A DNA stretch of 64,000 bases from Gemmatimonadota bacterium (GTDB lineage: Bacteria; Gemmatimonadota; Gemmatimonadetes; Longimicrobiales; Gaopeijiaceae). The translations under genes were made by a program, and so were the position numbers. Of the stretch, positions 28,269 to 43,035 are shown piece by piece. The notes under the pieces were generated by a model that saw only the letters and a program-made list of their open reading frames with translations, made no database searches and was not told the origin of the DNA. Numbering within the stretch: position 1 is the first letter of the stretch; the number at the start of each line of letters is the position of its first letter. The DNA is taken from the NCBI GenBank assembly GCA_022560615.1, contig JADFSR010000001.1, positions 62,001-126,000 on the forward strand. The letters run 5' to 3'.

Positions 28269-28415
28269 CTCTCCTCCTCGAACCGCGGCACACTTCGCGA
28301 TCTAGCTCGCATGGATAAGGCGACCGACGGATGCGCCGTTACTTGATCTCACCTACCGCAGTCATGAATTCCCGGATGGGAACTAGTAGCTGTGGGTACT
28401 CACGATAGTGCCTGC

Positions 28416-28470: not shown

Positions 28471-28488
28471 AAGGTGCCGCCGCCGATC

Positions 28489-29052: not shown

Positions 29053-29138
29053 TGCCAAGCTCCGGAGGAAGACCGTCCGGCACACCGTTTCGATATCTCA
29101 AATCTAGCGGACGTTCGCGGCCACGTCTCAGCGCCTTT

Positions 29139-29297: not shown

Positions 29298-29345
29298 GTT
29301 ACCCGAGAACGTCACGTACCACCGCTCTGTTGCACCAAGAAAATA

Positions 29346-29369
29346 TGTACAGTATAGTTGTACAACTAT
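29346..29369 (+). promoter_or_regulatory. YefM operator upstream of yefM
   Basis: Two TGTACA cores (29346-29351 and 29359-29364) lie 13 bp apart. The second is the centre of a perfect 16-bp palindrome ATAGTTGTACAACTAT (29354-29369), 14 bp before the yefM ATG. Paired TGTACA palindromes are the known YefM/YefM-YoeB autorepression sites in E. coli, so this module probably keeps its own regulation. Confidence 0.8.
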
Positions 29370-29383
29370 TCGAGGAGTGCCCC

Positions 29384-29662
29384 ATGTTAGAGCAAGTCAC
29401 CTATAGCTATGCGCGCCAGAACCTCGCGAAGGTTTTGCAGGAAGCCGAGGAGCGCCGGGAGCCCGTCATCATTACAAGGCGGGGCCACGAAGACATGGCC
29501 CTGATTCCTGCGGACGAGCTCCGTAGCCTTGAGGAATCCGTACACCTGCTCCGCTCCCCGAAGAACGCTCAGCGCCTACTTCACGCGCTCCAGCGAGCTC
29601 TTGAGGAGGGCGGCGTCTCAGACTCGCCCGAATCGCTGAGGTCCAAGTTTGGCCTCGAGTAA
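29384..29662 (+). CDS. yefM: Antitoxin of YefM/Phd family (cassette 4)
   Basis: The ATG at 29384 (after GAGGAGTGCCCC) gives 92 residues: MLEQVTYSYARQNLAKVLQEAEERREPVIITRRGHEDMALIPADELRSLEE. This is the Phd/YefM DNA-binding fold with a C-terminal toxin-binding tail. It neutralises YoeB and, with it, represses the operon through the TGTACA sites upstream. It overlaps yoeB by 14 bp. It is one of only three intact cassette genes on the plus strand. Confidence 0.93.
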   Translation: MLEQVTYSYARQNLAKVLQEAEERREPVIITRRGHEDMALIPADELRSLEESVHLLRSPKNAQRLLHALQRALEEGGVSDSPESLRSKFGLE

Positions 29663-29933
29663 GGAAGCCAGCACAGCCCGGGTCACGTTCTTTCAGGACG
29701 AGTTCAGAGAGGACCTGCGGTTCTGGATAGACACCAATCGGCGCATCGCACTCAAGGTCATGGACCTAGTGGAAGCCGTCACTCGAAATCCCTTCAAGGG
29801 AATCGGGAAGCCCGAGCCGCTCAAGCACCTCGGAGCAAATGTGTGGTCGCGCCGGATCACACAGGAACACCGCCTCGTGTACCTGGTGCGAACCGACCGC
29901 ATCGACTTCCTCCAGTGTCGCTACCACTACTGA
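29649..29933 (+). CDS. yoeB: mRNA interferase toxin YoeB/Txe (cassette 4)
   Basis: A TTG start inside yefM gives 94 residues. FQDEFREDLRFWIDTNRRIALKVMDLVEAVTRNPFKGIGKPEPLKHL and WSRRITQEHRLVYLV are the YoeB core, and the C-terminal RYHY holds the catalytic His/Tyr end. YoeB cuts mRNA in the ribosomal A site when YefM is degraded. The gene directly abuts a broken hicBA pair on the opposite strand. Confidence 0.93.
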   Translation: MASSKEASTARVTFFQDEFREDLRFWIDTNRRIALKVMDLVEAVTRNPFKGIGKPEPLKHLGANVWSRRITQEHRLVYLVRTDRIDFLQCRYHY

Positions 29934-29935
29934 GG

Positions 29936-30160
29936 CACACCTTAGCGGGCATCCTAGAGACCTCGACGATCTCTTCGCTGATCGAAGGGGAACAGGATCG
30001 CCATGCGCCTCTAGGCTCTCGAGTAAGCAGCAATCGCCTCGCGAGAATTCGCCAACGCCTCATCCCGCGTGGACCCCTGCGTGATGCATCCCGGAAGACT
30101 CGGGACCGCCGCCAGGAATACACCGTCCTCATCCTGCTCGATCAATCCTCGGTATTTCAT
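29936..30160 (-). pseudogene. Remnant of a HicB antitoxin with the start of hicA
   Basis: From an ATG at 30160 with GGAGGACC upstream, the minus strand reads MKYRGLIEQDEDGVFLAAVP and SLPGCITQGSTRDEALANSREAI, a clear HicB N-terminus. It then stops after AAYSRA. The rest continues in other frames: LEAHGDPVPL, then ISEEIVEVSR, the normal HicB end, so at least two frameshifts have occurred. MPAKV at the end resembles the start of the HicA toxin, which is cut off where yoeB ends. No functional antitoxin can be made from it. Confidence 0.75.
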
Positions 30161-30209
30161 TTGTGGTCCTCCACCTCACTATCTACCGTCACCCTAGCTT
30201 ACGCGGCAT

Positions 30210-30396
30210 GTCCTGTAACGGGCCAAGGTGCTCCCGACGCGGTGCCCAGCGATCATTATACGTATGAGCGGGTCACGATCGTACGTACGCTGGGTGTAGC
30301 GTCCCGAAGGGCCGGTCCCGTTGCTCATCGTGCAACCTACCCGCCGCATCAGCGAAGCGTACCTGAGGGCGCGAGCGCGAGAGCGGCGTTACAAGA
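30210..30396. repeat. attC site 5, class A arms, long apical variant
   Basis: Left core CATGTCCTGTAAC at 30207-30219, right core GTTACAAGATG at 30388. The centre has the long variant hairpin CCCAGCG ... CGCTGGG containing ATACGTATGA and TCGTACGTACG. The left spacer is GGGCCAAGGT rather than GGACAGGC. Confidence 0.87.
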
Positions 30397-30419
30397 TGTG
30401 CCCCACCCGCGTAGTAGGG

Positions 30420-30974
30420 TCACCACATGAGGTGCGTTACAGCAGCATCGACGGTTCCTTCGAAGTCCGTGGAGCCGTCGACGTACGTGAGACCCAGCCG
30501 GTCGCACTCCTCGGAGAGATACGCACTGTATTCAATGCCGAACTGGACCACCGCGAGGATCTCCTCGTCGCTCTGCTCGTTCAGCCAGTCGTTGGCGTGC
30601 CCACGATGGCGGCGGATATCGGAAAGCTTCCGTTGCGGCTCGATATCGCGATAACCGACGAAGCACGATCGCACGTCGGCACCTGAAAGGCCTCGAAGCT
30701 CTGCGGCTTGCTTGGGCAGGACCATGTCCCCTTCAAAGACATAGTCGACGTCGGCCTCGAGCGCGTTCTCGGCCATCGCCCGAACTAGCGGCCACATGTT
30801 CTCGCCCACCTCGCGCGAGTGGGCGTTTGGGTCCACGCCCATTGAAGGGACGGCTCGGTGCAAACCCATCTTCAGCACGTCGAGAGACAGGAGCGCGATC
30901 CCCCTCTTCTGGACTAGCTCTCTTGAGATCATGCCCTTCCCAGCGCGAGGGGCCCCACCGAGTAGGATCAACAT
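30420..30974 (-). CDS. P-loop kinase-like protein (cassette 5)
   Basis: A 184-residue protein that opens with a Walker A loop, MLILLGGAPRAGKGMISREL. It later has YVFEGDMVLPKQAAEL and a Cys-Phe-Val-Gly-Tyr strand followed by a lid-like region (KLSDIRRHRGHANDWL). The size and layout suit a small nucleotide- or metabolite-kinase of the P-loop superfamily, possibly a resistance-type phosphotransferase. The substrate cannot be deduced. It is a single-gene cassette. Confidence 0.72.
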   Translation of the reverse strand: MLILLGGAPRAGKGMISRELVQKRGIALLSLDVLKMGLHRAVPSMGVDPNAHSREVGENMWPLVRAMAENALEADVDYVFEGDMVLPKQAAELRGLSGADVRSCFVGYRDIEPQRKLSDIRRHRGHANDWLNEQSDEEILAVVQFGIEYSAYLSEECDRLGLTYVDGSTDFEGTVDAAVTHLMW

Positions 30975-31021
30975 CCGGATACTTTCCGCCCCTTCTGAAG
31001 AACCCAGCTGCTCACGGGCAT

Positions 31022-31175
31022 GTCTTGTAACGGACAGGCGCTCCCGACGCGGAGGTGAGCATGTCAGTGCTCACCGCAGTGTCCGCGTAGCGGCCGAGCC
31101 GTTGCTCAGGGTGCGTCACATCAGCCTAATCGCGAAAGCGACCCGAGGCGACAGCTTGAGTCAGGCGTTACCAGA
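31022..31175. repeat. attC site 6, hybrid of class A and class B arms
   Basis: Left arm TTGTAACGGACAGGCGCTCC is class A. From GTGTCCGCGTAGCGGCCGAG onward the site is class B and ends GAGCTTGAGTCAGGCGTTACC. The outer arms therefore are not complementary as they are in other sites. Core GTT at 31167-31169. Confidence 0.87.
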
Positions 31176-31202
31176 CGTGAGCAGCCCGTCCGGCCCTACC
31201 GC

Positions 31203-31466
31203 CTAGGCCGCGACAAGTGGCGCTAATTCGCTCAGGTCGGGCCGGCTCAGTCCGAGCTCGTCGAATACGGCGAGAATCTCGTCGACGCTGGTGGCGCCCG
31301 GACTCACGATCTCAACACCGATCGGCCGCTCATCCCCGTCATAGTCGACCACGATCTCCCGTGCGACCTCTTCCGATCGGACGGCCTTCTGCCCCGGCGC
31401 ATGGTCGAGGCAGATGTACGCCGCGAAGGGCTGACCCTTCCGGTACGTGACTTGGAGAGAGATCAT
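31203..31466 (-). CDS. DUF2283-family protein (cassette 6)
   Basis: An 87-residue protein. YICLDHAPGQKAVRSEEVAREIVVDYDGDERPIGVEIVSPGA is a degenerate DUF2283 pattern (the family repeats a Val-Asp-Tyr-Asp...Gly-Ile-Glu-Ile element). These proteins are usually encoded next to DUF4258 proteins, as here with a 4-bp gap, and the pair is often found in mobile regions. A TA-like role is suspected but not shown. Confidence 0.75.
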   Translation of the reverse strand: MISLQVTYRKGQPFAAYICLDHAPGQKAVRSEEVAREIVVDYDGDERPIGVEIVSPGATSVDEILAVFDELGLSRPDLSELAPLVAA

Positions 31467-31470
31467 GGCG

Positions 31471-31662
31471 TCACACTTTCGGGTACGCGGTCACCACATA
31501 CGTAATCTGGTCGTCTGGGTCCGGCTCCACCACTATTACCCACGGAGCATCGCCAAGGTGCGTTGAGATCAGCCAGCGCCCGGAGCGTCGCGAAGATGTG
31601 ATCGCCGTTGCGTCGGCAAGCATGGTCCGAAGCTCGACTTCTGAGAATCCGCGCTCCTCCAT
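31471..31662 (-). CDS. DUF4258-family protein, possibly 5'-truncated (cassette 6)
   Basis: The ATG at 31662 gives 63 residues: MEERGFSEVELRTMLADATA, then HLGDAPWVIVVEPDPDDQITYVVTAYP, matching DUF4258 except that the usual first strand with a His is missing. The same frame continues upstream as WKWDLRFVSRVERRMEERG to a TAG, but without a standard start codon. The start has therefore been lost, or CTG (LRF...) is used. It is the first gene of the pair with DUF2283. Confidence 0.68.
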   Translation of the reverse strand: MEERGFSEVELRTMLADATAITSSRRSGRWLISTHLGDAPWVIVVEPDPDDQITYVVTAYPKV

Positions 31663-31751
31663 GCGACGCTCGACACGCGAGACGAAGCGCAGGTCCCACT
31701 TCCACTATTCAGGTCGATCCAACTACGCTCCTCACTAATGTCATCGCTCAT

Positions 31752-31907
31752 ATCTGGTAACGGACAGGCGCTCCCGACGCGGAGGTGAGCATGCGAGTGC
31801 TCACCGCAGTGTCCGCGAAGCGGCCGGGCCCGTCGCTCATGATACATCTTACCCGCTGAATCAGCGAAGCGTACCCGAGGGCCCGAGCGGGAGCGCGGCG
31901 TTACCAG
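31752..31907. repeat. attC site 7, class A
   Basis: Left core ATCTGGTAAC (to 31761) matches the reverse complement of site 6 core GTTACCAGAC. Apical hairpin GGTGAGCA / TGCTCACC. Arms GCGCTCCCG and CGGGAGCGC. Core GTT at 31900-31902. Confidence 0.9.
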
Positions 31908-31923
31908 ATGAAGCGCCGGTCGC

Positions 31924-32274
31924 CTACTCCTGATCTGGTACGTGCTCCAGAAGCGCTACGAGAAGAGGGTGCACTTCAGGCACGTCGACGGTGGCGGTGT
32001 CCCAGACGACGTCGAGCGCGACCACGAAATAGTCATGGATCAGCTTGTGGCGGAGCCCCGTGATTTCGCGCCAGGGAATCTCGGTGTGCTTCGTGGTGAG
32101 CCCGCGGGTCACGCGACCGGCGGCTTCACCAAGGACCTCAAGCTCGCGAATCAGGACGTCTTGGATCATCCAATCCAGTTCGAACTGCGCCTTCGTCGTC
32201 TTTGCCGTGACCTCTATCACTCGCTCAACCGCTTCTAGCATATGGCGGAGAAAGAGAGCGTCAGGCGGTGTCAT
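31924..32274 (-). CDS. hepT: HEPN-domain toxin, HepT-like (cassette 7)
   Basis: A 116-residue all-helical DUF86 protein. The HEPN catalytic motif Arg-X4-6-His is in GLRHKLIHDYFVVALDVVWDT. The N-terminus is LFLRHMLEAVERVIE. HepT proteins are RNases controlled by a paired MNT nucleotidyltransferase, which AMPylates the HEPN toxin. Here the MNT gene lies immediately upstream and overlaps by 14 bp. Confidence 0.9.
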   Translation of the reverse strand: MTPPDALFLRHMLEAVERVIEVTAKTTKAQFELDWMIQDVLIRELEVLGEAAGRVTRGLTTKHTEIPWREITGLRHKLIHDYFVVALDVVWDTATVDVPEVHPLLVALLEHVPDQE

Positions 32275-32551
32275 GGAAGATCACTCTCGCCTCAGCGAGG
32301 ACGTCGTCTCGCATGTACGGGCTCAGCCCGCCCTCCGTGAGAAGATCCACCGGCTGCCCAAAAAACTCGGCCAGCTCGTCCTCACAGCGAATGAGCCCGA
32401 AAAAGCCGGTCGGCCCGCCAAAATCTGCGATCAAGTCGATGTCGGACTCTGCGGTCTCCTCCCCGCGAGCAGCCGATCCGAAAAGGCGCAGCTGCGTCAC
32501 CCCATGCCGCCGGCATATCGCGGCGAGTCGAGAATCGTCGAATTGGACCAT
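32261..32551 (-). CDS. mntA: MNT-domain antitoxin nucleotidyltransferase (cassette 7)
   Basis: A 96-residue minimal nucleotidyltransferase with the active-site pattern LRLFGSAARGEETAESDIDLIADFG (Gly-Ser then Asp-X-Asp). MNT proteins AMPylate a tyrosine of the cognate HepT and silence it. It is the first gene of the pair. TTGACC and AGAATA (32585-32556) lie so close to the ATG that the message would be almost leaderless. Confidence 0.9.
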   Translation of the reverse strand: MVQFDDSRLAAICRRHGVTQLRLFGSAARGEETAESDIDLIADFGGPTGFFGLIRCEDELAEFFGQPVDLLTEGGLSPYMRDDVLAEARVIFHDTA

Positions 32552-32555
32552 ACCC

Positions 32556-32585
32556 TATTCTCTCAGACCACTGAAAATAGGTCAA
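32556..32585 (-). promoter_or_regulatory. Possible promoter of mntA-hepT
   Basis: On the minus strand TTGACC (32585-32580) and AGAATA (32561-32556) are spaced 18 bp. The mntA ATG is at 32551, so transcription would start at or very near the first codon. Confidence 0.42.
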
Positions 32586-32608
32586 CAGAACACACAGCCC
32601 TGAGCTTT

Positions 32609-32766
32609 GTCTGGCAACGGACAGGCGCTCCCGACGCGGAGTTGAGGTTGATAGACCTCGGCGCAGTGTCCCCGAAGGGGCCGGGCCCGTTGCTCATGAT
32701 ACACCTTACGCGCTGAATCAGCGAAGCGTACCTGAGGGCCCGAGCGGGAGCGCGGCGTTATAGGGC
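32609..32766. repeat. attC site 8, class A
   Basis: Left core GTCTGGCAAC (to 32618), near-complement of site 7 core GTTACCAGATG. Apical element GTTGAGGTTGATAGACCTCGGC. Right arm CGAGCGGGAGCGCGGCGTTATAGG. The stop codon of the next minus-strand gene lies inside it. Confidence 0.9.
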
Positions 32767-33095
32767 GTTGGTGCGGTCGTCGCCAGCCCTCCTGGTTCCC
32801 TCATCTGTTCGCGGTCGGCCCAATACTCTGGAGCTCGGCGATGGTGCATTACCGCCAGAACCCGAAGTCGCCCCTCTGAGGCCTTGTACAGTACGCTATA
32901 TGGGAATCGCGCGAGCAAACGCCGATGCACTCCGGGCCGAACGACGAACCCAGCGGCCGGATTCTCGGCGATGCCAGCAACGATGTCATAGACCTCGGCG
33001 CCCAGCGAGTCGCCGAGCTCAGACGCTTGACTATTGTAGAAGTCGATTGCCTCAGCCAATTCGACGCTGGCCGCATCATGGAATGTGACCAGCAA
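32718..33095 (-). CDS. RelE/ParE-family toxin (cassette 8)
   Basis: A TTG start at 33095 gives 125 residues. VTFHDAASVELAEAIDFYNSQA, PAAGFVVRPGVHRRLLARFPYSVLY and VLAVMHHRRAPEYW are the ParE/RelE core, about 92 residues. The last about 30 residues (ending ALPLGPSGTLR) are read from attC site 8, so the gene borrows its stop from the recombination site. The antitoxin gene ends 3 bp upstream. The target (gyrase or ribosome-bound mRNA) cannot be told. Confidence 0.87.
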   Translation of the reverse strand: MLVTFHDAASVELAEAIDFYNSQASELGDSLGAEVYDIVAGIAENPAAGFVVRPGVHRRLLARFPYSVLYKASEGRLRVLAVMHHRRAPEYWADREQMREPGGLATTAPTPYNAALPLGPSGTLR

Positions 33096-33098
33096 TCG

Positions 33099-33320
33099 CT
33101 ACCGCGTCCCACCTAGGCCGAGCGATTCGAAGACTTCCGACGCCGGAATCTCCGCGGCATCGCCGGACTCAAGATCGGACAGACGACGCTCGGCCTCATC
33201 ATACCAGGCCTGCTCGATTTCAGAATCCGCGTCGAGACTCGCGATGAGACGCTGCGCGAGGCGAGCTCGGTCCGGCTCGGACAACTTCAGGGCCTCGGCT
33301 TCCAGTTGATCTATTGTCAC
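33099..33320 (-). CDS. Addiction-module antidote protein (cassette 8)
   Basis: A GTG at 33320 gives 73 residues: MTIDQLEAEALKLSEPDRARLAQRLIASLD, then EIEQAWYDEAERRLSDLESGDAAEIPASEVF. This is the small helical antidote family (addiction module component) that pairs with ParE/RelE toxins. It is encoded directly before its toxin. The frame is open to 33347, but the extension shows no homology. Confidence 0.87.
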   Translation of the reverse strand: MTIDQLEAEALKLSEPDRARLAQRLIASLDADSEIEQAWYDEAERRLSDLESGDAAEIPASEVFESLGLGGTR

Positions 33321-33410
33321 CCCGGGCCTCCTCGGGCTTGGTCCCACATGATACCGCCGCCGAGTAGTCCAGTGCCATGCTCGAATCGGCCGTCCTCTGA
33401 AACCACGGCC

Positions 33411-33577
33411 CTCATAGAACGGACAAGGGACTCACGACGCGGAGAAGGGCGTGTCATCGCCCTTCGTAGTGTCCGCGAAGCGGCCGAGCCGTTGTCTAGG
33501 GTACGGCCACATCAGCCGAAGCGCGAAGCGCGTAGATAACCATCCGAGGCGAGAGCTTAAGTCAGGCGTTGGACGAC
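33411..33577. repeat. attC site 9, class B
   Basis: Left arm CATAGAACGGACAAGGGACT CACGACGCGG; apical hairpin GAAGGGCG / CGCCCTTC; subclass-specific CAGCCGAAGCGCGAAGCGCG (also in site 14); right arm GAGAGCTTAAGTCAGGCGTT. Core GTT at 33568-33570. Confidence 0.88.
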
Positions 33578-33929
33578 ATTCCTCACCGCCCGCTCCGATT
33601 CTCAAACACTGGCTCCGTAACGGGTTGCGATTCTGCTGCGGACCAGGATGCCAGCGAACGCCCGGAAGCTCAAGGAAGAAGCCCTCGGAGCCAGATCCGT
33701 CGGCAGCAATCGCGTGTCGCAATTGTACGCTCTTGGATGCGGTGCCCGCTGAGAGATTCCGACCGGAATATTTGCCACGATATAGAGTACTTTGTAAAGT
33801 AAAGCTTCGATACCCCTTGGCCGAAGTCACGATCTGCCCGTGCCGGAGGCCTCCAATGGTCGATTCTCGTGAGGTAGATCTGATCGGCAGAATCGGCGGT
33901 AGAAGGTCCAAGCACACAGGAAGGTAGCA
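33578..33929. other. Non-coding part of cassette 9
   Basis: About 350 bp between the site 9 core and the next gene. An open plus-strand frame runs through it but begins inside the attC site and has no convincing start or family. It is somewhat less GC-rich than its surroundings (TTTGTAAAGTAAAGCTTCG near 33791) and may hold the promoter of the next gene. Confidence 0.4.
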
Positions 33930-34436
33930 ATGAAGAAGTGGCTGAGACGCATCCGCGGCGCCATCGGGATGGGCCTGACCTGGGCAGTAGCATGGTTCGG
34001 CGCGGGCATGATCATGCTGCTGGGGCTTCTGCTGGTAACCGGTAGTACCGGCGCCGACGTCCCCTATCCCCTCGGGTTTGGCGCCTTCGGCTTTGTTGCC
34101 GGCGTCACCTTCTCAGGGGTCCTGGGTCTTGTTGAGGGCCGTCGCCGGTTTGATCAGATGTCCCTTCCACGCTTTGCTGGTTGGGGGGCCGCCGGAGGTT
34201 TCTTGCTGTCCGCGATCTTTGTCTTGGCCGTGGCCCTTGCAGAGGACCCCGCTTTCTTATGGAACCTGGTGGTCTTGGGCCCCATCTTCGCGGTGGCCGG
34301 CGCGGGCTCTGCCGCTGGTTCGCTGGCCCTAGCCAGAAGGGCGGAGGACCGAGAGTTGCTCGAGGCCAGTGAAGACGTGGCCGAGGTGGGGCCTTCCGAA
34401 GGTGAGGCGCGAGAGCTGCTCGGAGGCGGGGGCTGA
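33930..34436 (+). CDS. Membrane protein of unknown function (cassette 9)
   Basis: An ATG after AGGAAGG gives 168 residues with four transmembrane helices: TWAVAWFGAGMIMLLGLLLV, GFGAFGFVAGVTFSGVLGLV, GAAGGFLLSAIFVLAVALA and LVVLGPIFAVAGAGSAAGSLALA, followed by an acidic tail (ELLEASEDVAEVGPSEGEARELL). I recognise no named family. It is the only intact single-gene cassette on the plus strand. Confidence 0.72.
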   Translation: MKKWLRRIRGAIGMGLTWAVAWFGAGMIMLLGLLLVTGSTGADVPYPLGFGAFGFVAGVTFSGVLGLVEGRRRFDQMSLPRFAGWGAAGGFLLSAIFVLAVALAEDPAFLWNLVVLGPIFAVAGAGSAAGSLALARRAEDRELLEASEDVAEVGPSEGEARELLGGGG

Positions 34437-34654
34437 CCTCTCCACGTGGATCCAGTACGCAGCCTTGGAGAACGTTGCTCGTCCAGTTGTGTGCGGGTGG
34501 CCCGAGCGATGCCTAGCTATCCAATATGCCGCGAAGAGGCCGGTCGCTAATTCAGCGTGGAGGCCCCGATACATGACATACGTCGCAAGAACATGCCCTC
34601 CCGCGTGTAGAGCGGCTAGAGACTTCTCACGTCACACTCTGCCCGCCGTCAGGA

Positions 34655-34814
34655 ATGTCGTCCAACGGACAGGCGCTCCCGACGCGGAGGTGAGCATGTC
34701 AGTGCTCACCGCAGTGTCCGCGTGGCGGCGCCGGGCCGATAGGTCATGATACATCTGACCCGCTGAATCAGCGAAGCGTATCTGGGGCCCGAGCGGGAGA
34801 GCAGCGTTACCAGG
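34655..34814. repeat. attC site 10, class A
   Basis: Left core AATGTCGTCCAAC (to 34666) is the exact complement of site 9 core GTTGGACGACATT. Apical hairpin GGTGAGCA / TGCTCACC. Right core GTTACCAGGCG, GTT at 34806-34808. Confidence 0.92.
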
Positions 34815-34833
34815 CGTCCCCACCCCTCGCAGT

Positions 34834-35130
34834 CTAGTTCCCGATACGCCTGATCGCCGGACCCCCGAGGCGCAGCACCTCTTGCCCTGCCGGAGTCTCG
34901 ATGAGGAGGCTTGACTCGGGACCAGCCAGCAGGACAACCGCCGGCGTACCGGCAGCGTCGGTCAACACGAGTCGCCGTCCTTGTAGCTCGTCGCGCTCTT
35001 GAGGGAGCATCGCGCTGAGTACGAGAATCGTGACCAATGAACCGAGCAAAGCCACGAACCTGCGGCTCCCGCGCAGCGACCGTTCAAGGTCATGAACTCG
35101 CGATTCAAGCTCAGATGGAGTGTCCGACAT
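34834..35130 (-). CDS. Membrane-anchored protein of unknown function (cassette 10)
   Basis: A 98-residue protein: a charged N-terminal helix (SELESRVHDLERSLRGSRR), one membrane segment (FVALLGSLVTILVLSAML), then a small beta-rich domain (RRLVLTDAAGTPAVVLLAGPESSLLIETPAGQEVLRLGG) that would face the periplasm. The tail is repetitive in character, with alternating hydrophobic strands. No family recognised. Confidence 0.68.
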   Translation of the reverse strand: MSDTPSELESRVHDLERSLRGSRRFVALLGSLVTILVLSAMLPQERDELQGRRLVLTDAAGTPAVVLLAGPESSLLIETPAGQEVLRLGGPAIRRIGN

Positions 35131-35187
35131 CGATGAGCCTCCGAGGATTGGGGTTACCCCTTCGACTCATCACTCCGCCTCCGGGGA

Positions 35188-35368
35188 TGTCTGGTAACGG
35201 TCCAGGCGCTCCCGACGCGGAGCACCGCGACCCATACGTATGATTCAACGCCAATCGTACGTACGCGGTGCGGAGTGTCCGCGAAGCGGCCGGGCCCACG
35301 TTGGGATCAACCTACGATGTCCGCAGCAAATACACTAAGGGCCCGAGCGGGGGCGCGGCGTTAGCAGG
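35188..35368. repeat. attC site 11, class A arms, long apical variant
   Basis: Left core GATGTCTGGTAAC (to 35198). The centre has CACCGCG ... CGCGGTG around CATACGTATGATT and ATCGTACGTACG. Right arm GAGCGGGGGCGCGGCGTTAGC, GTT at 35360-35362. Confidence 0.88.
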
Positions 35369-35387
35369 CGTTGTGATCCGCACGGTC

Positions 35388-35861
35388 TTAGGACCGAGTG
35401 CGCCACACCGCGAGATGTTGGAAGTCCTTTCCGGTCAGAGATGTCCTCTTGACGAGCTTGTGCCCGAGGAGGTCGTGCCGAATCGCCGCAACGAGTTCGC
35501 CTGCGGCCTCAGCTTTCTCCTTCGCTGTCGCCGTCGCTCCGACGCGAACGGTCTCGAGAAAGGCGTACGCTTTGTCTATCACTTTATCGGGGCAGTAAAG
35601 CCACGAGATGTTCAATTCGTCTAGAAACTGTCTTTTAAGCCGATGGATCTCTTTCGCGTCTTCATCTACAAGTGTCCCGTCGGGATCGTCGACATAGAAG
35701 CCTCGCAAACCCTGTAGAAAGGACGTGTACCGCTCTTCCTTCCGCGCATGTTGTTCGGCTCGCCATCGCCTCCGTTCGTTCAACATCCAGGCTACGACAG
35801 CACCAACGAGCGGAACAAAGAACTTAAGGAAGTCTGGCGCGAGGAATTCGGTTGGGGTCAC
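35388..35861 (-). CDS. Membrane-anchored helical protein of unknown function (cassette 11)
   Basis: A GTG at 35861 gives 157 residues. One N-terminal membrane segment (FLKFFVPLVGAVVAWML) is followed by a cytoplasmic helical domain rich in Arg/Glu (NERRRWRAEQHARKEERYTSF; EIHRLKRQFLDELNISWLYC; AAGELVAAIRHDLLGHKLVK). No family recognised, although the layout recalls small cassette proteins seen in other chromosomal integrons. Confidence 0.68.
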   Translation of the reverse strand: MTPTEFLAPDFLKFFVPLVGAVVAWMLNERRRWRAEQHARKEERYTSFLQGLRGFYVDDPDGTLVDEDAKEIHRLKRQFLDELNISWLYCPDKVIDKAYAFLETVRVGATATAKEKAEAAGELVAAIRHDLLGHKLVKRTSLTGKDFQHLAVWRTRS

Positions 35862-35894
35862 GCGTCACCTCGAATCCAAAAGACGCTCTCCACA

Positions 35895-36052
35895 ATGTCT
35901 GATAACGGACAAGGGACTCACGACGCGGAGGTGAGGATGATAGCCCTCGCCGGAGTGTCCGCGTAGCGGCCGAGCCGTTGCTCAGGGTACGTCACATCAG
36001 CCTAATCGCGAAAGCGAGCTGAGGCGAGAGCTTGAGTCAGGCGTTGAGCGGC
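35895..36052. repeat. attC site 12, class B
   Basis: Left core AATGTCTGATAAC (to 35906), near-complement of site 11 core GTTAGCAGGCGTT. Left arm GGGACTCACGACGCGG, apical GGTGAGGATGATAGCCCTCGCC, right arm GAGCTTGAGTCAGGCGTTGAGC. GTT at 36043-36045. Confidence 0.9.
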
Positions 36053-36070
36053 GTTCCTCGCCCCGTCGCC

Positions 36071-36340
36071 TTAAACTGCCACACCCGGAGAAGGTGCTCC
36101 GCGAAGAAGGCCTTCGACGCTCAGGTCCTCGTCGATCGATGGCCAGTGTATCGCGTAGCCGCCGCCAGAGATCTCCCAGTCGGCTCGCTTAGCATCCGAG
36201 GCGTTCAGGAGTCGAGGATACCACGCCAGCGGCGCCGAGATCGTACGCCCGTCGGCGAGATCCACTCGGATGGAGTCCTCGCTGAACTGAACGTTTGCCA
36301 CGCGGGCGCCCGCACTATGTGAAGAAGCCGTTCCAGGCAT
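36071..36340 (-). CDS. DUF2442 protein (cassette 12)
   Basis: An 89-residue protein. VANVQFSEDSIRVDLADGRTISAPLAWYPRLLNASDAKRADWEISGGGYAIHWPSIDEDLSVEGLL is a complete DUF2442 domain. DUF2442 and DUF4160 genes occur side by side in many bacteria and are suspected to form a TA-like pair. Here they overlap by 26 bp. Confidence 0.87.
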   Translation of the reverse strand: MPGTASSHSAGARVANVQFSEDSIRVDLADGRTISAPLAWYPRLLNASDAKRADWEISGGGYAIHWPSIDEDLSVEGLLRGAPSPGVAV

Positions 36341-36548
36341 CTACCAATTCCTTCTCATGCCGCTGAACCAAGCGGAACAGCGTCGTAAGCTCATGCGACT
36401 TGAACCCCAGGCTTGACGCCAGGTTCACCGGAGACAGCCAGAACTTGGCAGTCGCCTCGTCGCGGTCCACGTGAACATGGGGCGGTTCGTTCGGCTCGTG
36501 ACTATAGAAATGGAAGCGATATGGGCCGGACCGAAGAACTGTTGGCAC
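36315..36548 (-). CDS. DUF4160 protein (cassette 12)
   Basis: A GTG at 36548 after GGGAGGAAGG gives 77 residues: MPTVLRSGPYRFHFYSHEPNEPPHVHVDRDEATAKFWL, the DUF4160 signature with its conserved His residues (EPPHVHV). It is the first gene of the pair with DUF2442. Function is unproven. Confidence 0.88.
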   Translation of the reverse strand: MPTVLRSGPYRFHFYSHEPNEPPHVHVDRDEATAKFWLSPVNLASSLGFKSHELTTLFRLVQRHEKELVDAWNGFFT

Positions 36549-36605
36549 TCGGCCTTCCTCCCTGAGCTCCGTGGACTCCTACGAATCTACACCAAGCTCC
36601 TCAGG

Positions 36606-36794
36606 AATGCCGCTCAACGGACAGGCGCTCCCGACGCGGAGCCCAGCGACATATACGTATGAATACATCCCGATCGTACGTATGCTGGGCGCAGTGTCCG
36701 CGAAGCGGCCGGGCCCTAGGTGCATGGTACACCTTACCAGCTGAATCAGCGAAGTGTACCTGGGGCCCGAGCGGGAGAGCAGCGTTACAGGATG
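36606..36794. repeat. attC site 13, class A arms, long apical variant
   Basis: Left core AATGCCGCTCAAC (to 36618), near-complement of site 12 core GTTGAGCGGCGTT. The centre has GCCCAGCGAC ... GCTGGGC with ATACGTATGAATAC and TCGTACGTATG. GTT at 36784-36786. Confidence 0.9.
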
Positions 36795-37108
36795 TCCCAA
36801 TCCACGAACATTCACCACCCGGCCCGCCGAAGGGATCCGCCCACAGGAGTCGAGCGCGGACAGCGAACCCTGAGATTCCGTGAACCCAGTTTCGGGCCAC
36901 CGAGGGCGCGGCCAGTGACGACGGCAGCGCCGCGCGCGATTACTGATTCGCGAGGAGCCTGAACTCAGATTGTACCTGATCTAGGAATTCGCCGCTCGAA
37001 TGAAGGATCGCGCGTCGACGCCCCACCTTACTTCCTCTTTTGGACGCGCCGTGATTCAGCTTGGCGATCGACTCCGCTCCTTACTCTCCCCACATGTCTT
37101 CGTTTGGG
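36795..37108. other. Cassette 13 without a convincing gene
   Basis: About 314 bp between two complete sites. No ORF has both a start and a recognisable product. On the minus strand a frame reads ESIAKLNHGASKRGSK and later AILHSSGEFLDQVQSEFRLL before a stop; it looks protein-like but lacks a standard start codon, so it may be a small-gene remnant. An RNA function is equally possible. Confidence 0.45.
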
Positions 37109-37278
37109 ATGTCCGATAACGGACAAGGGACTCACGACGCGGAGCTCGGGGTGCTAGCCCCGAGCGGAGTGTCCGCGCAGCGGCCGAGCCGTTGTCTAGG
37201 ATACGGTCACAGCAGCCGAAGCGCGAAGCGCGTAGGTAACCAACCGAGGCGAGAGCGTGAGTCCGGCGTTATACGTCG
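37109..37278. repeat. attC site 14, class B
   Basis: Left core GATGTCCGATAAC (to 37120). Apical hairpin CTCGGGG / CCCCGAG. Shares CAGCCGAAGCGCGAAGCGCG with site 9. Right arm GAGAGCGTGAGTCCGGCGTTATACG. GTT at 37268-37270. Confidence 0.9.
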
Positions 37279-37449
37279 TTTCTCACTGCCCGCGGAAAGA
37301 AGACTCACCTAGCGCCTTTGGATTCCCGTAGCGCGAACACGATAGCTTATCCGCGCACGTAACTTGCGGCTACATGAGCTTCCCGCGACTACAGCAAGTC
37401 CTTGTTTGAAGGCCCGCAGCAGACTGGGCCAATGACTGGTCGCCGCGGG

Positions 37450-40122
37450 CTACTCCGCTTTCAGGGTCGTGACCGGGTCCAACCTCACCGCCTCTCGTGC
37501 TGGGATCCAGCTAGCGGCAAGCGCGACACCGAGGAGGATCGTCGCGACCGCGGCGAGCGTCGCGGGGTCGGTCGGCGTGACGCCCCAAAGGTATTGCACC
37601 ATGATCCGCGAAAGCCCGAGAGAGGCCGCCAGGCCGAGCAGGAGGCCGACGAGCACGGGCGTGATCCCTTGACGGAGTACCATCTGCCGCACCTGTAGCC
37701 CCCCGGCTCCGAGTGCCATGCGGATCGCGATCTCGCGGTACCGTTGTCGTACGGTGTAGGCCAGCACGCCGTAGACACCGACGGCGGTCAGCGCGAGGGC
37801 GAGCGCGGCGAACACAGAGAGGAGCACAGCGCCGAAGCGTTCTCGAGCGAGTGAGCGAGTCACCACGTCATCTAACGGAAAGACCTGAGGTCTGGGGAGG
37901 GCCGGATCCACAGCGCGGAACGCCTCCACGAGCGCTCGCTCGATGCTCCCGCCTCCTGGCCGGCCCTGAGCGATGAAGACGGGCATCGTACCGAGCACAT
38001 TCGAGATGCGGGTCGGAGCCTGAGCCTGCGGCACGTACATCGTCCGGCGCGGATCGGCACGCAAGGACACCTCTCGGATGTCGCCGACCACACCGACGAT
38101 CTCGGCGCCCAGGCCAGCTAGCGACGGATCGATGAACTCATCTCGAATCCGACCGATCTCGATCCGTTGACCGATCGGATTCTCGTCAAGGAAGTACCGC
38201 CGAACGAAGGCCTCGTTCACGATCACGACGGGGGGGCCTTTCTCGACGTCCGTGTCCTCGAATGGACGACCTGCGACGATCGGAACGCCGAGCGTGCGAA
38301 AGTAGTCGGGCGTCACGGCCCGCCACTCGACCGCTCCTTCGAAGTCGCCAGGGCGACCGCCGATCGTCATTGGGAAGTTGATGCCACGCTCGAGTGGCAG
38401 GTTGGTCGCCCCGACTATCGATGCGATCGCTGCGGAGCCCTGCACCTGCTCTCGCACGCGCTGCTGAAGATCCCAAAGGTCCTGCGACGACTGGTATTCT
38501 GGCGGCCTAACGGGGAAGCGGACGGCGACGAGCCCCTCGGGGTCAAAGCCCGCGTCGACACGCGCCAGGCTAAACAGCGTCACCATGAGGAGGCCTGCGC
38601 CGGCGAGCAGCACCATCGATATCGCCGACTGCACGACCAGAAGGCCCTCCCGGGTGCGGCCGCGCCCGGAAGCTCCCCGAGCGCTCTGCTTAAGCACCTC
38701 CGAGAGCCGACCGCGAGCCGCAGGCCAGGCGGCCCAGGCGGCCGCCCCGCCGAAGAAGATGCTCGCAGCGAGCGCGGCGACGTACGTGAACAGCATGACC
38801 CGCCAGTCGACTGCGATCGTCCCCATGCGGGGAAGCTCGGAGGGCGCGAGCGAGACCAAGAGGCTCACGGCCCACCTTGACATCAGGAGACCGAGTGAGC
38901 CGGCGGCCAACGCAACGAGAACGGCCTCCGTGAGGACGAGGCGTGCGAGGCGTCCACGACTTGCCCCGAGCGCCGCCCGCAGCGCAGTCTCACCCCGACG
39001 CTGCATTGCACGCGCCAGGAAGAGGTTCGCAACGTTGGCACAGGAGATCAGAAAGACCAGCACGACAACGCCCATGAGGATCCATAGGGCCTTCGCTGAC
39101 TCGCCGACGTAAAGCTCGCTGAACGTCGCAAGCTTCATCCCGAGGTCTCGTCGGTATACGAGGTCGGGGTACTCCGCCGCGAAGGATGCGGTGAGCGACG
39201 ACACGTCCGTCTGGGCCTCCTGACGCAGGACGCCCTCGCGGAGGCTCGCGATCGTGGGCCAATTCTCGCCCTCGTCCATGGGATCGACGGAGAGGCCAAG
39301 AGGGACTAAGACTCGTACGGGCTCGTCGACGTATGGGAACTGGAAGCTCTCGGGGAGCACGCCGACGACGACGTAGGGTTCCTCGTTCAGATGGAGCATG
39401 CGACCTACGACGTCGGACGCGCCTCCGAAACGGGACTGCCAAATCTCGTGGGAAACGATCGCGACCTTCGCGCCGCCCGAAACATCTTCAGTGGCCATGA
39501 AATCTCGGCCTTGCCCAAGCGAATAGCCCAGGACGCCCAAGAATTCACGGCTGACCCGCAGCCCAGTGACGACCGAGACTTGACTGGCTTCGCCCACACG
39601 TCCATGGAAGTCCCGCCACGTCGCCACGGCATCGAATGAACGGACGTTGTCGTGCCAGTACTGGTACTTTCCGCGGGTCAGGTACGACTGGACGTGCGTA
39701 CCGCCGTCCCAGGCGAGGTGCACCACACGGTCGGCGTTGGGGAACGGGAGTGGCTGCAGGAGCACCGCATCTACGACGCTGAAGACCGCGCTGTTGGCAC
39801 CGATTCCGAGTGCCAACGTCAGGACGACAGCGGTCGTGAAGTGGCCCGCCTTGAGCAGCGACCTGAGACTGCGCGTAACGTCCTGTCCGAGCCCGTCCAT
39901 GCTCCACCTCCCGCCCCCGCGGCTTCTCAGCCGCTCGTAGACTCCTCTCTGAACAACGTCCCACACCGCTCTTGCTGCGGCGAGCCCCCCACGCACCCGT
40001 CCTCTTTCGCGGGCCTGCCTGACCTCGTGAGCGAAGAGCGCCTCCATAGCGGAGCCGTGCTTGCGGCGGAGATCCGGCGGGAGCGCCCGTAAGGCCACGC
40101 GGTAGATCCGCGCCCAGCTCAT
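37450..40122 (-). CDS. ADOP-type ABC transporter permease (MacB/FtsX family) in a cassette
   Basis: The ATG at 40122 (MSWARIYRVALRALPPDLRRKHG) gives about 890 residues with the duplicated-permease layout. A first membrane helix and MacB periplasmic core (VLTLALGIGANSAVFSVVDAVLLQPLPF, MLHLNEEPYVVVGVLPESF) are followed by an FtsX domain, then a second copy of both ending in LAASWIPAREAVRLDPVTTLKAE. The conserved last motif is that of this family. No ATPase gene is adjacent. A PadR regulator precedes it in the same cassette, the usual partner in Acidobacteria- and Gemmatimonadota-type genomes. Substrate unknown. Confidence 0.9.
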   Translation of the reverse strand: MSWARIYRVALRALPPDLRRKHGSAMEALFAHEVRQARERGRVRGGLAAARAVWDVVQRGVYERLRSRGGGRWSMDGLGQDVTRSLRSLLKAGHFTTAVVLTLALGIGANSAVFSVVDAVLLQPLPFPNADRVVHLAWDGGTHVQSYLTRGKYQYWHDNVRSFDAVATWRDFHGRVGEASQVSVVTGLRVSREFLGVLGYSLGQGRDFMATEDVSGGAKVAIVSHEIWQSRFGGASDVVGRMLHLNEEPYVVVGVLPESFQFPYVDEPVRVLVPLGLSVDPMDEGENWPTIASLREGVLRQEAQTDVSSLTASFAAEYPDLVYRRDLGMKLATFSELYVGESAKALWILMGVVVLVFLISCANVANLFLARAMQRRGETALRAALGASRGRLARLVLTEAVLVALAAGSLGLLMSRWAVSLLVSLAPSELPRMGTIAVDWRVMLFTYVAALAASIFFGGAAAWAAWPAARGRLSEVLKQSARGASGRGRTREGLLVVQSAISMVLLAGAGLLMVTLFSLARVDAGFDPEGLVAVRFPVRPPEYQSSQDLWDLQQRVREQVQGSAAIASIVGATNLPLERGINFPMTIGGRPGDFEGAVEWRAVTPDYFRTLGVPIVAGRPFEDTDVEKGPPVVIVNEAFVRRYFLDENPIGQRIEIGRIRDEFIDPSLAGLGAEIVGVVGDIREVSLRADPRRTMYVPQAQAPTRISNVLGTMPVFIAQGRPGGGSIERALVEAFRAVDPALPRPQVFPLDDVVTRSLARERFGAVLLSVFAALALALTAVGVYGVLAYTVRQRYREIAIRMALGAGGLQVRQMVLRQGITPVLVGLLLGLAASLGLSRIMVQYLWGVTPTDPATLAAVATILLGVALAASWIPAREAVRLDPVTTLKAE

Positions 40123-40159
40123 CCGTAGCAGCTTCACCACTCCTGAGAGCCCCGAGCCT

Positions 40160-40486
40160 TCACGCGCCCGCCCGACGTTGCTCGAGGCGCGCGCGCGCCA
40201 CACCCGCTAGCGACTGCATGCGCGCGACCTCGGCCTCCAGGGCGGTACACCCAGCCCCAGTTAGCCGGTAGTACCGCTCCCGCCCCCCGATTCCCGCCGG
40301 CCGTTCTTCCTCGTCGATCTCCTCAAGCCACCCGAGGGCGGTGAGCTCCTCGAGAGATCCGTACAGTGTCGCAGGCCAAAGGCGCACCCGACCGTCGCTG
40401 AGCTGCCGGACGTCTTCCTGAATGGCGGTTCCGTAGCGTGGCGCTGAAGAGACGGACAGTAGAACGAAGAACCAGTGCCGCTTCAT
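40160..40486 (-). CDS. PadR-family transcriptional regulator
   Basis: A 108-residue PadR protein. The winged helix includes FFVLLSVSSAPRYGTAIQEDVRQLSDGRVRLWPATLYGSLEELTALGWLEEI and the wing ERYYRLTGAGCTALEAEVARMQ. PadR repressors lose DNA binding on sensing a ligand. It is transcribed ahead of the ADOP permease with a 37-bp gap, so the two form an operon. Palindromic sequences just upstream are likely operators. The N-terminus seems slightly atypical (MKRHWF...). Confidence 0.92.
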   Translation of the reverse strand: MKRHWFFVLLSVSSAPRYGTAIQEDVRQLSDGRVRLWPATLYGSLEELTALGWLEEIDEEERPAGIGGRERYYRLTGAGCTALEAEVARMQSLAGVARARLEQRRAGA

Positions 40487-40520
40487 GGCACCCCCTCAAG
40501 CCTAGGCTTGCGACACAAAC

Positions 40521-40545
40521 TATGCATTCATAGTATGGCTGCATA
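40521..40545 (-). promoter_or_regulatory. Likely PadR operator
   Basis: TATGCA (40521-40526) and TGCATA (40540-40545) form an inverted repeat, with a smaller TATG-CATT-CATA inside. It lies 35 bp upstream of padR. PadR-family sites often carry such ATGCAT half-sites, so autorepression is plausible. Confidence 0.5.
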
Positions 40546-40730
40546 CAAAAGCGTGCAAGGTGTTCCCGGCAGCTGAGGCCACCGAAGTAGAGTGTGCGCG
40601 GGAGAGGTCTGCAGGACAGAACCGCAGCGTCAGAGGGACCTTATGATGGCGGACTATGCTGCGAAGACCACGCACTCTGCCGAGCAGCGCGGCCATCTCG
40701 TTCCTCGATCCCACCGTCCCGTCATCAGAA

Positions 40731-40889
40731 ATGACGTATAACGGACAATGGACTCACGACGCGGAGGAGGGCATGTCAGTGCCCTCCGTAGTGTCCGCGT
40801 AGCGGCCGAGCCGTTGCTCAGGGTACGTCACATCAGCCTAATCGCGAAAGCGACCTGAGGCGAGAGCTTGAGTCAGGCGTTATAGGGCG
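40731..40889. repeat. attC site 15, class B
   Basis: Left core AATGACGTATAAC (to 40742) complements site 14 core GTTATACGTCGTT across 3.4 kb. Apical hairpin GGAGGGCA / TGCCCTCC. Right arm GAGCTTGAGTCAGGCGTTATAGG. GTT at 40879-40881. Confidence 0.92.
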
Positions 40890-40943
40890 TAGTCCGCCTG
40901 CCACTTCACCGTGCTTCGCGCAGCCGTACCTGTGGCGTCCAGC

Positions 40944-41633
40944 CTAGTCGTTGCTAGGCGATGAGCCAGTTGCCGCCCATGTCCGAACGATCCGCAGGAT
41001 CTCTGGCCCCGGGAACCTCTCAAGCATCGCCATCGGACCGCTCCGGTAGACATCTTCGAGTCGCTTCAGTTGCTCGGCACGAGTGTCTGAGCTATCCGGA
41101 CGCGGGGCGTTCGACAGGATCTGAAATACTACGGACGCAGGCAGCCACTCGTCGATGTCGGTGGGCGCATTCAGGGAGTCACCCCGACCCAGCAGCCTTC
41201 CAAACGGATAGGGATCATGCCAGCCCAAGACATCAATCACGCGCCTCCTCTCGTGCTTCCGGGCTACATCGACTCGAAAGACGACCGCCGCTCCACTGGG
41301 TACCCATCCAGACTCCTCCCAGACGTCGCGGTTACATGTCGTGTCATACGCCCAGGGAACCGCCAAGAAGGTGTCCGCTGGCGCTAGGGTACCCCACGCA
41401 TCGCGCATCGGGTCGGGGCGACTAGCCATACGGACGACGAACTCATGCGCGACAACGCTTGAATCTGCCGCACCTATAAGTAGCTGGTCCCACGGCACCG
41501 GGACGGACTCGACGCGGCCCGTCGCAACCGCGAGCACGATTGATTCGCCCGCTGCTGGACCCAGAGAACCGGATTCGGATGAACACTGACTGGGGAGCAC
41601 AGACGACAGCACGACGGCGACCTGAAGCAGCAT
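40944..41633 (-). CDS. Exported protein of unknown function (cassette 15)
   Basis: A 229-residue protein with a short hydrophobic N-terminus (MLLQVAVVLSSVLPSQCSSES), which looks like a signal peptide with a possible lipidation Cys at 17, although the box is not canonical. The rest is a beta-rich domain (VAHEFVVRMASRPDPMRD, DTFLAVPWAYDTTCNRDVWEESGWVPSGAAVVFRVDVARKHE) and a helical end. No family recognised. It is the cassette nearest the recombinase, which in an integron would be the most recent arrival. Confidence 0.65.
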   Translation of the reverse strand: MLLQVAVVLSSVLPSQCSSESGSLGPAAGESIVLAVATGRVESVPVPWDQLLIGAADSSVVAHEFVVRMASRPDPMRDAWGTLAPADTFLAVPWAYDTTCNRDVWEESGWVPSGAAVVFRVDVARKHERRRVIDVLGWHDPYPFGRLLGRGDSLNAPTDIDEWLPASVVFQILSNAPRPDSSDTRAEQLKRLEDVYRSGPMAMLERFPGPEILRIVRTWAATGSSPSND

Positions 41634-41676
41634 GTCTTTCGTCCCTCCCCGCTCCGAACTCTATACGCTCTCAGAC

Positions 41677-41705
41677 TATGCCATATAACGGATAACTCAC
41701 GAACC
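41677..41705. other. Half-site between array and recombinase, possible attI
   Basis: GACTATGCCATATAACGGAT followed by AACTCACGA matches the left arm of class B sites, with a short deletion in the spacer. The rest of an attC is absent. Its core complements the site 15 core GTTATAGGGCGTAGTC. It lies 128 bp from the 3' end of the recombinase gene. It is either a truncated attC or the insertion site for new cassettes. Confidence 0.6.
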
Positions 41706-41833
41706 GTATCGCCTATTGGGCCTGACAGCCAGAATCGCGAAGATCGCCAATGGGGCAATCGCGCAGCGGGTCGCGAAGGCAGACAATTCACCTCTTGTCG
41801 CGCCACTCCCAATCCATGACGTCCCAACCCGCC

Positions 41834-42715
41834 CTATTCGTCGTCTTCGAAGAGCTGGTCGATGGGGCTCTTTATCTTCCGGAGATCACGCTGGGCCACG
41901 TGCGTGTAGATGACCGTCGTGGAGATCTTCGCGTGTCCGAGCAGTTCCTGGATGCTCCGCAGGTCCGTTCCGCCCTCTAGGAGATGGGTCGCGAAGCTAT
42001 GCCGCAGCATGTGCGGGGTGACCCGCTTTCTGATACCGGCTCTCTTCCCGGCCCGGGCGACCTGCTTCTGGATGGATCTGGTGGTGATGTGTCTGTCCCG
42101 TCTGTGCCCGCCTGGGAAGAGCCAGTGCGCGGGTCGTTCCACGCGGACGTATTCCCTCAACACGCCGAGTACCACCGGCGACAGCATGACGTAGCGGTCC
42201 TTGCGACCCTTCCCCTGTCGGACATGGATCTGCCCTCGTTGAGAATCGACGTCCTCCACCCGCAGCCGTGAGACCTCGCCCACGCGGAGCCCGGCGGAAT
42301 ACAGAATGAACGCGATGGCTCGGTGCTTGGGTGACCCGAGCTCGTTCAGGAAGCGACGTGCCTCCAGCGCGCTGAGAACCTTGGGCAGCGTCTTCCCGCG
42401 TTTCGGCCGTGGGATGCCGGCCACGGGAGCAGGCGCGTTCAGGACGTATCGGTGCAGGAACCTGAGAGCGCTCAGCGCTTGGTTGGCATAGCTGTGCGAC
42501 AAGCCTGACCGGAGCATACCCAGCAACCAGGCGCGGACCTCCCCGTCCGTGGCCACTTGATCCTCGGCCGCTCTCCCCGCATAGAATCGTCGCGCGTGGG
42601 CGGAATAGAGCGATCGTGTTTGTCGGGCATATCCGCGGAGCACCATCTCGTCGTCGAGGCGCCGCAAGAGCTCCCGCAGCCAGTCAGGGAGTGTCGCTCG
42701 GGTCTTGGAATTCAT
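41834..42715 (-). CDS. Tyrosine recombinase beside the cassette array
   Basis: The ATG at 42715 gives 293 residues. Residues about 10-95 are a core-binding SAM-like domain and 115-285 the catalytic domain. Catalytic residues are visible: Arg-144 (SAGLRVGEV), Lys-172 (GKGRKDR), His-235 and Arg-238 (HMLRHSFATHLL), His-261 (LLGHAKISTT) and Tyr-270 (VIYTHV). The end IKSPIDQL recalls the IntI and IS91-associated recombinases. The extra block that defines IntI integrases between the Lys and His motifs is absent: only WLFPGGHRRDRH lies there. It could be a non-canonical cassette integrase or an unrelated neighbour. The gene's 3' end faces the array. Confidence 0.9.
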   Translation of the reverse strand: MNSKTRATLPDWLRELLRRLDDEMVLRGYARQTRSLYSAHARRFYAGRAAEDQVATDGEVRAWLLGMLRSGLSHSYANQALSALRFLHRYVLNAPAPVAGIPRPKRGKTLPKVLSALEARRFLNELGSPKHRAIAFILYSAGLRVGEVSRLRVEDVDSQRGQIHVRQGKGRKDRYVMLSPVVLGVLREYVRVERPAHWLFPGGHRRDRHITTRSIQKQVARAGKRAGIRKRVTPHMLRHSFATHLLEGGTDLRSIQELLGHAKISTTVIYTHVAQRDLRKIKSPIDQLFEDDE

Positions 42716-43035
42716 CGCAAACCATGTTCGCCACTCCCGCGAGCCACCGGAATACGAGGATCGGCCACCCACCCGACCCAACAAGGAAAAACGGTAATGA
42801 GACCGACGGATGGGTTCTGCTCAGAGCGCGCAGGCGTACCCCGCGAACAAGCGACGAAGACGGAAACCGGAGTCCGGCAAAGCCGGCCTCCGGGCGAGCA
42901 AAGCGAGCGAATTTCCGCGCAGGAGCTTAGCCCCCCGCGAACCCAAACCAAGCGCCCACAGCCAGCGTCCCCCAGAGACCCCGATTAAGCCGAAGCGCGG
43001 CGAGTAGAGCCCATCCGGCGGTCCCTGCACAGAGG
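42716..43035. other. Intergenic region between actF and the recombinase
   Basis: This 320-bp stretch has no supported gene. It contains the strong hairpin annotated separately at 42867-42893 and small repeats GCGAGCAAAGCGAGCG next to it. It should hold the recombinase promoter, but I see no convincing -35/-10 pair and no attC-like arm. Confidence 0.5.
42867..42893 (-). terminator. Hairpin after the alternative complex III operon
   Basis: CCGGAG-T-CCGGC, loop AAA, GCCGG-C-CTCCGG: 11 paired bases with one mismatch. On the minus strand it is followed only by TTT, so it is a weak intrinsic terminator at best. It lies 143 bp past the actF stop. Confidence 0.55.

Follow-up and report, generated by a model that had tools for sequence, protein, structure and literature searches.

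Integrons are recognized by their tyrosine recombinase, IntI, whose additional (I2) domain defines intI in surveys and detection tools (PMC2426708, PMC9668308) and is the feature that makes it easily distinguished (PMC9024848). The acquisition of I2 has been interpreted as the step that opened the way to single-stranded sites, in a work that relied on evolved IntI1 variants, and the phage CTXphi provides the precedent for a folded single strand recombined by an Xer-type enzyme (PMC7790495). Since the standard surveys require I2, systems that operate without it would be missed. The stretch analyzed here, hereafter the window, consists of 64,000 nucleotides from a Gemmatimonadota bacterium (contig JADFSR010000001.1, positions 62,001 to 126,000) and contains a cassette array, a tyrosine recombinase devoid of I2 and, between them, at 41677-41705, the motif CTATGCCATATAACGGATAACTCACGAACC. 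This motif is very probably the attI site of an integron-like system, in the state left by the last cassette insertion.

The motif had been reported at this position by a first-pass annotation, and the sequence is verified there. Its occurrence is not due to chance: an 18-base pattern drawn over it, ATGNCRTATAACGGAYAA, finds four matches in the window with up to two mismatches and none in 100 shuffles, and all four matches are array-type sites, with exact correspondence at the motif and at the site at 40731. The 128 bp counted in that annotation from the motif to the recombinase 3' end (41834) are correct, and the cut at 41688|41689 is positioned 145 bp past the recombinase stop. The array extends from 27.3 to 40.9 kb and is composed of long repeats of approximately 140-170 nt that separate short genes, mostly encoded on the minus strand like the recombinase, for a total of 12 two-armed attC-like sites and 13 cassettes, most of which have matching ends. 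Specifically, when the first bases of each cassette are compared with the reverse complement of the bases preceding its own attC, setting the cut at G|TT on the minus strand, the cassette ends prove to be inverted repeats whose match extends over 15 positions, background level being reached at position 15 (13 cassettes, and a rerun with 12). The own-end match is never reached when the attC sites are reassigned among the cassettes (100,000 permutations, p <= 1e-5), and the result is the same for positions 6-13 only, mostly outside the classical 7-bp R box. The arms of the window, with consensus TTANNYGAAATNNNN, are 15 bp long, and the 7-bp R box (GTTRRRY/RYYYAAC) is not found there as the paired outer arm; a search of the attC-like sites against Rfam returned no match. 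With numbering from the cut, the cassette start at 41688 agrees with the R'' at 40880 at 11 of 14 positions (2-15), against a best of 8, and mostly 4-7, for the R'' of the other cassettes, indicating that 41688|41689 is a true cassette boundary and bearing out the proposed complementarity between the core of the motif and the core at 40879. Conversely, the idea of a longer site reduced to a remnant by loss of its spacer has to be abandoned: the motif is an intact junction between attI and the start of a cassette, and what looked like a “spacer deletion” reflects the fact that attI and attC have different left arms (GTTCGTGAGTTATCCG and GTCGTGAGTCCATTGTCCG, respectively).

The same boundary is visible in related bacteria. 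In a genome of the same genus (G001), whose homologous recombinase is 77% identical in the matched part, 52 of 67 aligned columns are identical over the 65 bp before the cut (score 83; shuffles 21 +/- 5.6, maximum 42); the 65 bp on its cassette side score only 29, so that conservation stops at G|TT. Seven Paenibacillus species share 28 invariant bases among the last 30 before the cut and diverge immediately after it, with a mean identity of 0.88 over positions -1 to -40 and of 0.38 over +3 to +40; in five of the seven, the flank upstream of the recombinase is common (coverage 0.58-0.97), and the array is little so (0.04-0.23). The first cassettes differ among these species, with near-identical attI, and the cassette that is first in one of them (L070, 1-770) is second in another (L065, 683-1451; 89% identical), as predicted by insertion at attI. 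Moreover, the sequence downstream of the recombinase is long enough for a first-cassette test in 70 related loci. In 27 of these, a first cassette with ends matching at 11 or more of 12 positions begins no further than 400 bp from the recombinase stop, compared with 0.10 expected from shuffles, and the same test on the upstream side of the recombinase gives 0 out of 61; two loci, G005 and L052, yield no clean first cassette under the strict test. In the relatives that pass the test, the cut is located 44-366 bp past the stop. The left arm of attI generally consists of a short palindrome followed by 9-10 nt and then by G|TTA, which distinguishes it from the left arm of the attC sites in that array. 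The suggestion that the motif serves as the insertion platform is thus supported by the match of the cassette ends, the arrest of conservation, the turnover in Paenibacillus and the layout of the related loci.

The length of the arms separates this array and its relatives from the canonical ones. Arrays accompanied by I2-less enzymes (the window, two Cohnella, Paenibacillus Root52, Halanaerobacter and Brucepastera) pair over at least 15 positions, and at positions 10-14 they match their own end in 4.3-5.0 of 5 bases versus 1.2-2.4 for other ends. Conversely, in the canonical Vibrio array (40 cassettes) pairing fades by position 10, with arms of approximately 9 bp, and two arrays of the Treponema family (14 and 12 cassettes) lose it after position 6, with arms of 7 bp and positions 10-14 at background (p of 0.36 and 0.95). 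The Vibrio and the two Treponema arrays were used because k-mer counts beside canonical Gemmatimonadota integrons revealed no clear repeats, making those arrays unusable as controls. In the arrays compared, arm length tracks the type of enzyme. The pairing also contains a conserved defect. All 27 of 27 first-cassette starts have A at position 9, opposed in 24 of them by C (G when read on the reverse complement), and A faces C in 51 of the 54 cassettes of the array sets; the Vibrio and Treponema arrays do not show this mismatch. When the bottom strand folds, this position forms a G.T wobble, while on the top strand it is an A.C mismatch, and for this reason the bottom strand is the more stable one, folding better in 11 of 12 sites of the window and in 32 of 32 other sites according to modelled energies. 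The covariation of the arms and the strand asymmetry suggest that attC acts as a folded bottom strand. An explanation that retains some weight, although we consider it unlikely, is that the cassettes move as double-stranded DNA like Xer/dif modules and that the complementarity of their ends has another cause. It would agree with an enzyme that lacks I2, the domain tied to single-strand recombination, and whose best structural matches are XerA, and with the start consensus TTANNYGAAAT, which by eye we take to resemble an Xer arm. Nevertheless, the variable positions 3-5 and 11-14 covary between the cassette ends, a property not required by double-stranded recombination, and the bodies of the sites form long imperfect palindromes in which the bottom strand consistently has the advantage.

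The recombinase has the R-K-H-R-H-Y active site, with R167, K192/K195, H258, R261, H284 and Y293 invariant in 24 homologues, and matches Phage_integrase with 147 bits; its N-terminal 23 residues or so are uncertain, given a later ATG at 42715. The I2 domain, which canonical integrases carry near patch III, is absent. Specifically, the match to TIGR02249 scores below the curated cutoff and is split into two pieces (positions 2-181 and 232-315), leaving 182-231 unmatched; the enzyme has 14 residues where the VchIntIA structure has 55, and the spacing between KGxKxR and HxxRH is 60 residues versus 99-101 in canonical IntI and 58-63 in all 80 measurable named relative loci. The predicted structure (mean predicted local distance difference test score, pLDDT, of 79) is closest to XerA (Z 22.6), with VchIntIA at Z 19.1. 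In a tree of 118 enzymes built with a quick method, canonical IntI forms one clade (99) among the I2-less array enzymes and an IS91-linked clade, while the Xer proteins fall outside (100) and the enzyme of the window is placed outside the Xer clade. The quick tree leaves open the branching order of the I2-less groups with respect to canonical IntI, and a single gain of I2 is favored only because the Xer outgroup lacks it. Relatives of the recombinase are also found in a metagenome-assembled genome of an Undinarchaeales archaeon, at L097 (without I2, on a contig that ends at the recombinase) and at L116 (partial).

It is very improbable that the array is served by a canonical IntI encoded elsewhere and that the neighboring recombinase is incidental. 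The genome of the window (G000) does carry such an IntI on another contig, C30, and therefore cannot by itself decide which enzyme serves the array. However, in seven relatives' genomes with the same type of recombinase (two Cohnella, Paenibacillus, Halanaerobacter, Brucepastera and two Treponema), six of which have visible arrays, no canonical IntI scores over the cutoff, which makes the I2-less enzyme the candidate there; in addition, arm length follows the recombinase type, and the order recombinase-attI-array recurs in six phyla. The C30 gene (G000:C30:14037-14957; L142, L143) scores over the TIGR02249 cutoff, and three attC-like repeats (GGCATCGTGGTCC..GCAGCAGAATTCCAAAGACGTTAGA) are located 4.5-6.2 kb downstream of it (L143 5478, 6544, 7145). 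Even less probable is that a decaying array edge stripped an ordinary attC of its body and left the motif as a truncated site instead of an insertion platform: the right part of the motif does resemble the left arms of class-B attC sites (family D15), but the 65 bp before the cut are conserved at the same place after the recombinase in the same-genus genome, and about 27 relatives present a site of this layout at 44-366 bp from the stop with an arm unlike their own attC left arm. That cassettes enter at the distal end, at 27.3 kb, is hardly credible, as no supporting point was found, the degenerate or half sites are those at that end, and the extra Paenibacillus cassette sits at the recombinase end.

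Some considerations weigh against the interpretation of the motif as the attI of an active I2-less system. In the same-genus genome, the recombinase carries a frameshift or stop and the first cassette is without matching ends; we infer cassette insertion at 41688 itself from relatives rather than from strains of the same species. The canonical IntI on C30 might act on the sites of the window. The paired arms fit single-strand folding and fall short of proving it, and the folding energies are model values. Lastly, the additional domain has been reported as necessary for the activity of IntI1 (Messier and Roy 2001, as cited in PMC2426708 and PMC7790495).

The comparisons show the junction, the cassette unit, the conservation that reaches the cut, the absence of the I2 domain, the 15-bp arms and, in relatives, the turnover at attI, whereas the catalysis, the choice of strand and the function of the long arm are inferred. 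The recombinase is transcribed toward attI, and the best-supported part of the mechanism is that it inserts cassettes there: they most likely enter directly downstream of its gene, at 41688|41689, where the G of attI (C at 41689 on the plus strand) would be joined to the TT that starts the cassette, displacing older cassettes toward 27.3 kb, the end where the sites are decayed. On the excised circle, one strand would fold so that the first 15 bases of the cassette pair with its own R'' into a 15-bp double-stranded arm beside the L arm. The likely reaction would be an integron-like recombination between a folded bottom-strand attC and a double-stranded attI, and the long, fully paired arm may substitute for the I2 helix by which canonical IntI grips the folded attC, in analogy with the folded dif-like hairpin that CTXphi offers to XerCD.

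The features of the locus are collected in Table 1. The YefM/YoeB pair (29292-30218) is read against the direction of the array, and the other toxin-antitoxin cassettes are those of HepT/nucleotidyltransferase and of the ParE-like toxin. Exact copies of the attC core motif of the window, CTCNCGACGCGGAG, are present elsewhere in G000 (C2:193639, C2:194451, C18:15590, C23:29083, C59:14149). The two copies on C2 are 812 bp apart, and the off-window copies could represent arrays without a recombinase, while single copies may be due to chance, as a reversed-pattern control also gives many matches at up to one mismatch. At the locus of the same-genus genome (G001:C122:24098-25029; L009, L182), attI is well kept despite the broken recombinase, and an attC-like GTGCAGCAGAATCGCGAGGCGTTAG occurs approximately 30 bp past the cut.

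Table 1. Coordinates of the recombinase, putative attI and cassette array in the window
Feature	Coordinates	Strand	Content
IntI-like tyrosine recombinase lacking I2	41834..42784	-	reads toward attI
attI proper	41689..41753	-	cut-proximal 65 bp, kept in same-genus genome G001
attI/first-cassette junction	41677..41705	-	cut G|TT (minus strand) between 41688 and 41689
Cassette 15, first in array	40880..41688	-	open reading frame (ORF) 40944-41633
attC-like site 15	40742..40879	-	
Cassette 14	37269..40741	-	MacB/FtsX-type permease (37450-40203) and PadR regulator (40160-40486)
attC-like site 14	37120..37268	-	
Cassette 13	36785..37119	-	335 bp, without clear ORF
attC-like site 13	36618..36784	-	
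Cassette 12	36044..36617	-	DUF2442
attC-like site 12	35906..36043	-	
Cassette 11	35361..35905	-	
attC-like site 11	35198..35360	-	
Cassette 10	34807..35197	-	
attC-like site 10	34666..34806	-	
Cassette 9	33569..34665	-	ORF 33930-34436 on + strand
attC-like site 9	33420..33568	-	
Cassette 8	32758..33419	-	ParE-like toxin / Unstab_antitox pair
attC-like site 8	32618..32757	-	
Cassette 7	31901..32617	-	HepT / nucleotidyltransferase pair
attC-like site 7	31761..31900	-	
Cassette 6	31168..31760	-	DUF2283
attC-like site 6	31031..31167	-	
Cassette 5	30389..31030	-	AAA/zeta-toxin-like kinase
attC-like site 5	30219..30388	-	
Cassette 4	29292..30218	-	YefM/YoeB toxin-antitoxin pair on + strand; ends degenerate
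attC-like site 4	29146..29291	-	degenerate
Cassette 3	28464..29145	-	ends degenerate
Array distal end	27352..28463	-	three attC-like right halves (28438, 27704, 27352), partner arm not recognizable

The combination of an I2-less recombinase, an attI 44-366 bp past its stop and 15-bp arms is found across at least six phyla, and some of the genomes that show it have no canonical IntI. Only one complete integron is recorded for Firmicutes in the IntegronFinder 2.0 paper, whereas 14 Bacillota loci pass the first-cassette test here. The existence of I2-less enzymes beside arrays that have an attI of their own implies that integron-like gene capture is wider than surveys show. A literature search, with most subscription papers and all preprints outside its scope, retrieved no report of I2-less integrons, and this is apparently a widespread and undescribed integron type, whose enzyme lacks the domain thought to define and power integrons, although priority cannot be claimed. 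We lean toward the view that these loci represent an active I2-less integron class that spans phyla and uses folded attC sites by means of 15-bp arms, with the canonical I2 integrons as one clade arisen from within it or beside it. If so, this class would be a living version of the step that preceded the acquisition of I2. Such arrays also make the origin of the use of single-stranded sites by integrons testable with natural enzymes. That absence of the domain goes together with a lengthened DNA arm is a concrete and falsifiable prediction.

By its defining features, as far as they can be read in the sequence, the system of the window is not of the IntI type, although it is probably integron-like in its working, and its position is best appreciated by comparison with the known systems. 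The IS91-linked tyrosine recombinases belong to the same I2-less family, as a clade within the same radiation, but an attI or a cassette array adjoins them in 0 of 17 cases, and an IS91-like transposase is found instead. I2-less recombinases adjoining such a transposase occur at L002, L003 and L023 in addition to the 17 named loci; beside the recombinase of the window there is no IS91-like transposase open reading frame, and the IS91 hits of the motif scan all fall in other loci. Xer/dif and CTXphi share with the window an Xer-like enzyme without I2 and long paired binding arms; a Xer/dif module has as its site a dif-like sequence of roughly 28 bp that the host XerC/XerD recombine. The system described here differs from both in having an ordered array, a dedicated attI with an adjoining recombinase and covarying cassette ends. 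The reverse integrons of Treponema, to which the first-pass annotation had likened the locus, correspond to it in gene order, as the recombinase and the cassettes are read in the same direction. The match does not extend further: full-length canonical IntI over the cutoff is found in 36 of 118 genomes of that family, two of them with the coordinates that PMC3607928 gives for T. succinifaciens and T. brennaborense, and the cassette ends pair over 7 bp, whereas the enzyme of the window is without I2 and its arms reach 15 bp. Lastly, canonical integrons, both Vibrio chromosomal and class 1, have in common with the window a tyrosine recombinase, an array with palindromic attC, toxin-antitoxin cassettes and an attI beside the recombinase with insertion at G|TT, which in the window is indicated by comparative evidence; they differ from the system described here, in which I2 is missing, attI is placed at the 3' end of the recombinase, and the arms measure 15 bp versus approximately 9 in Vibrio.
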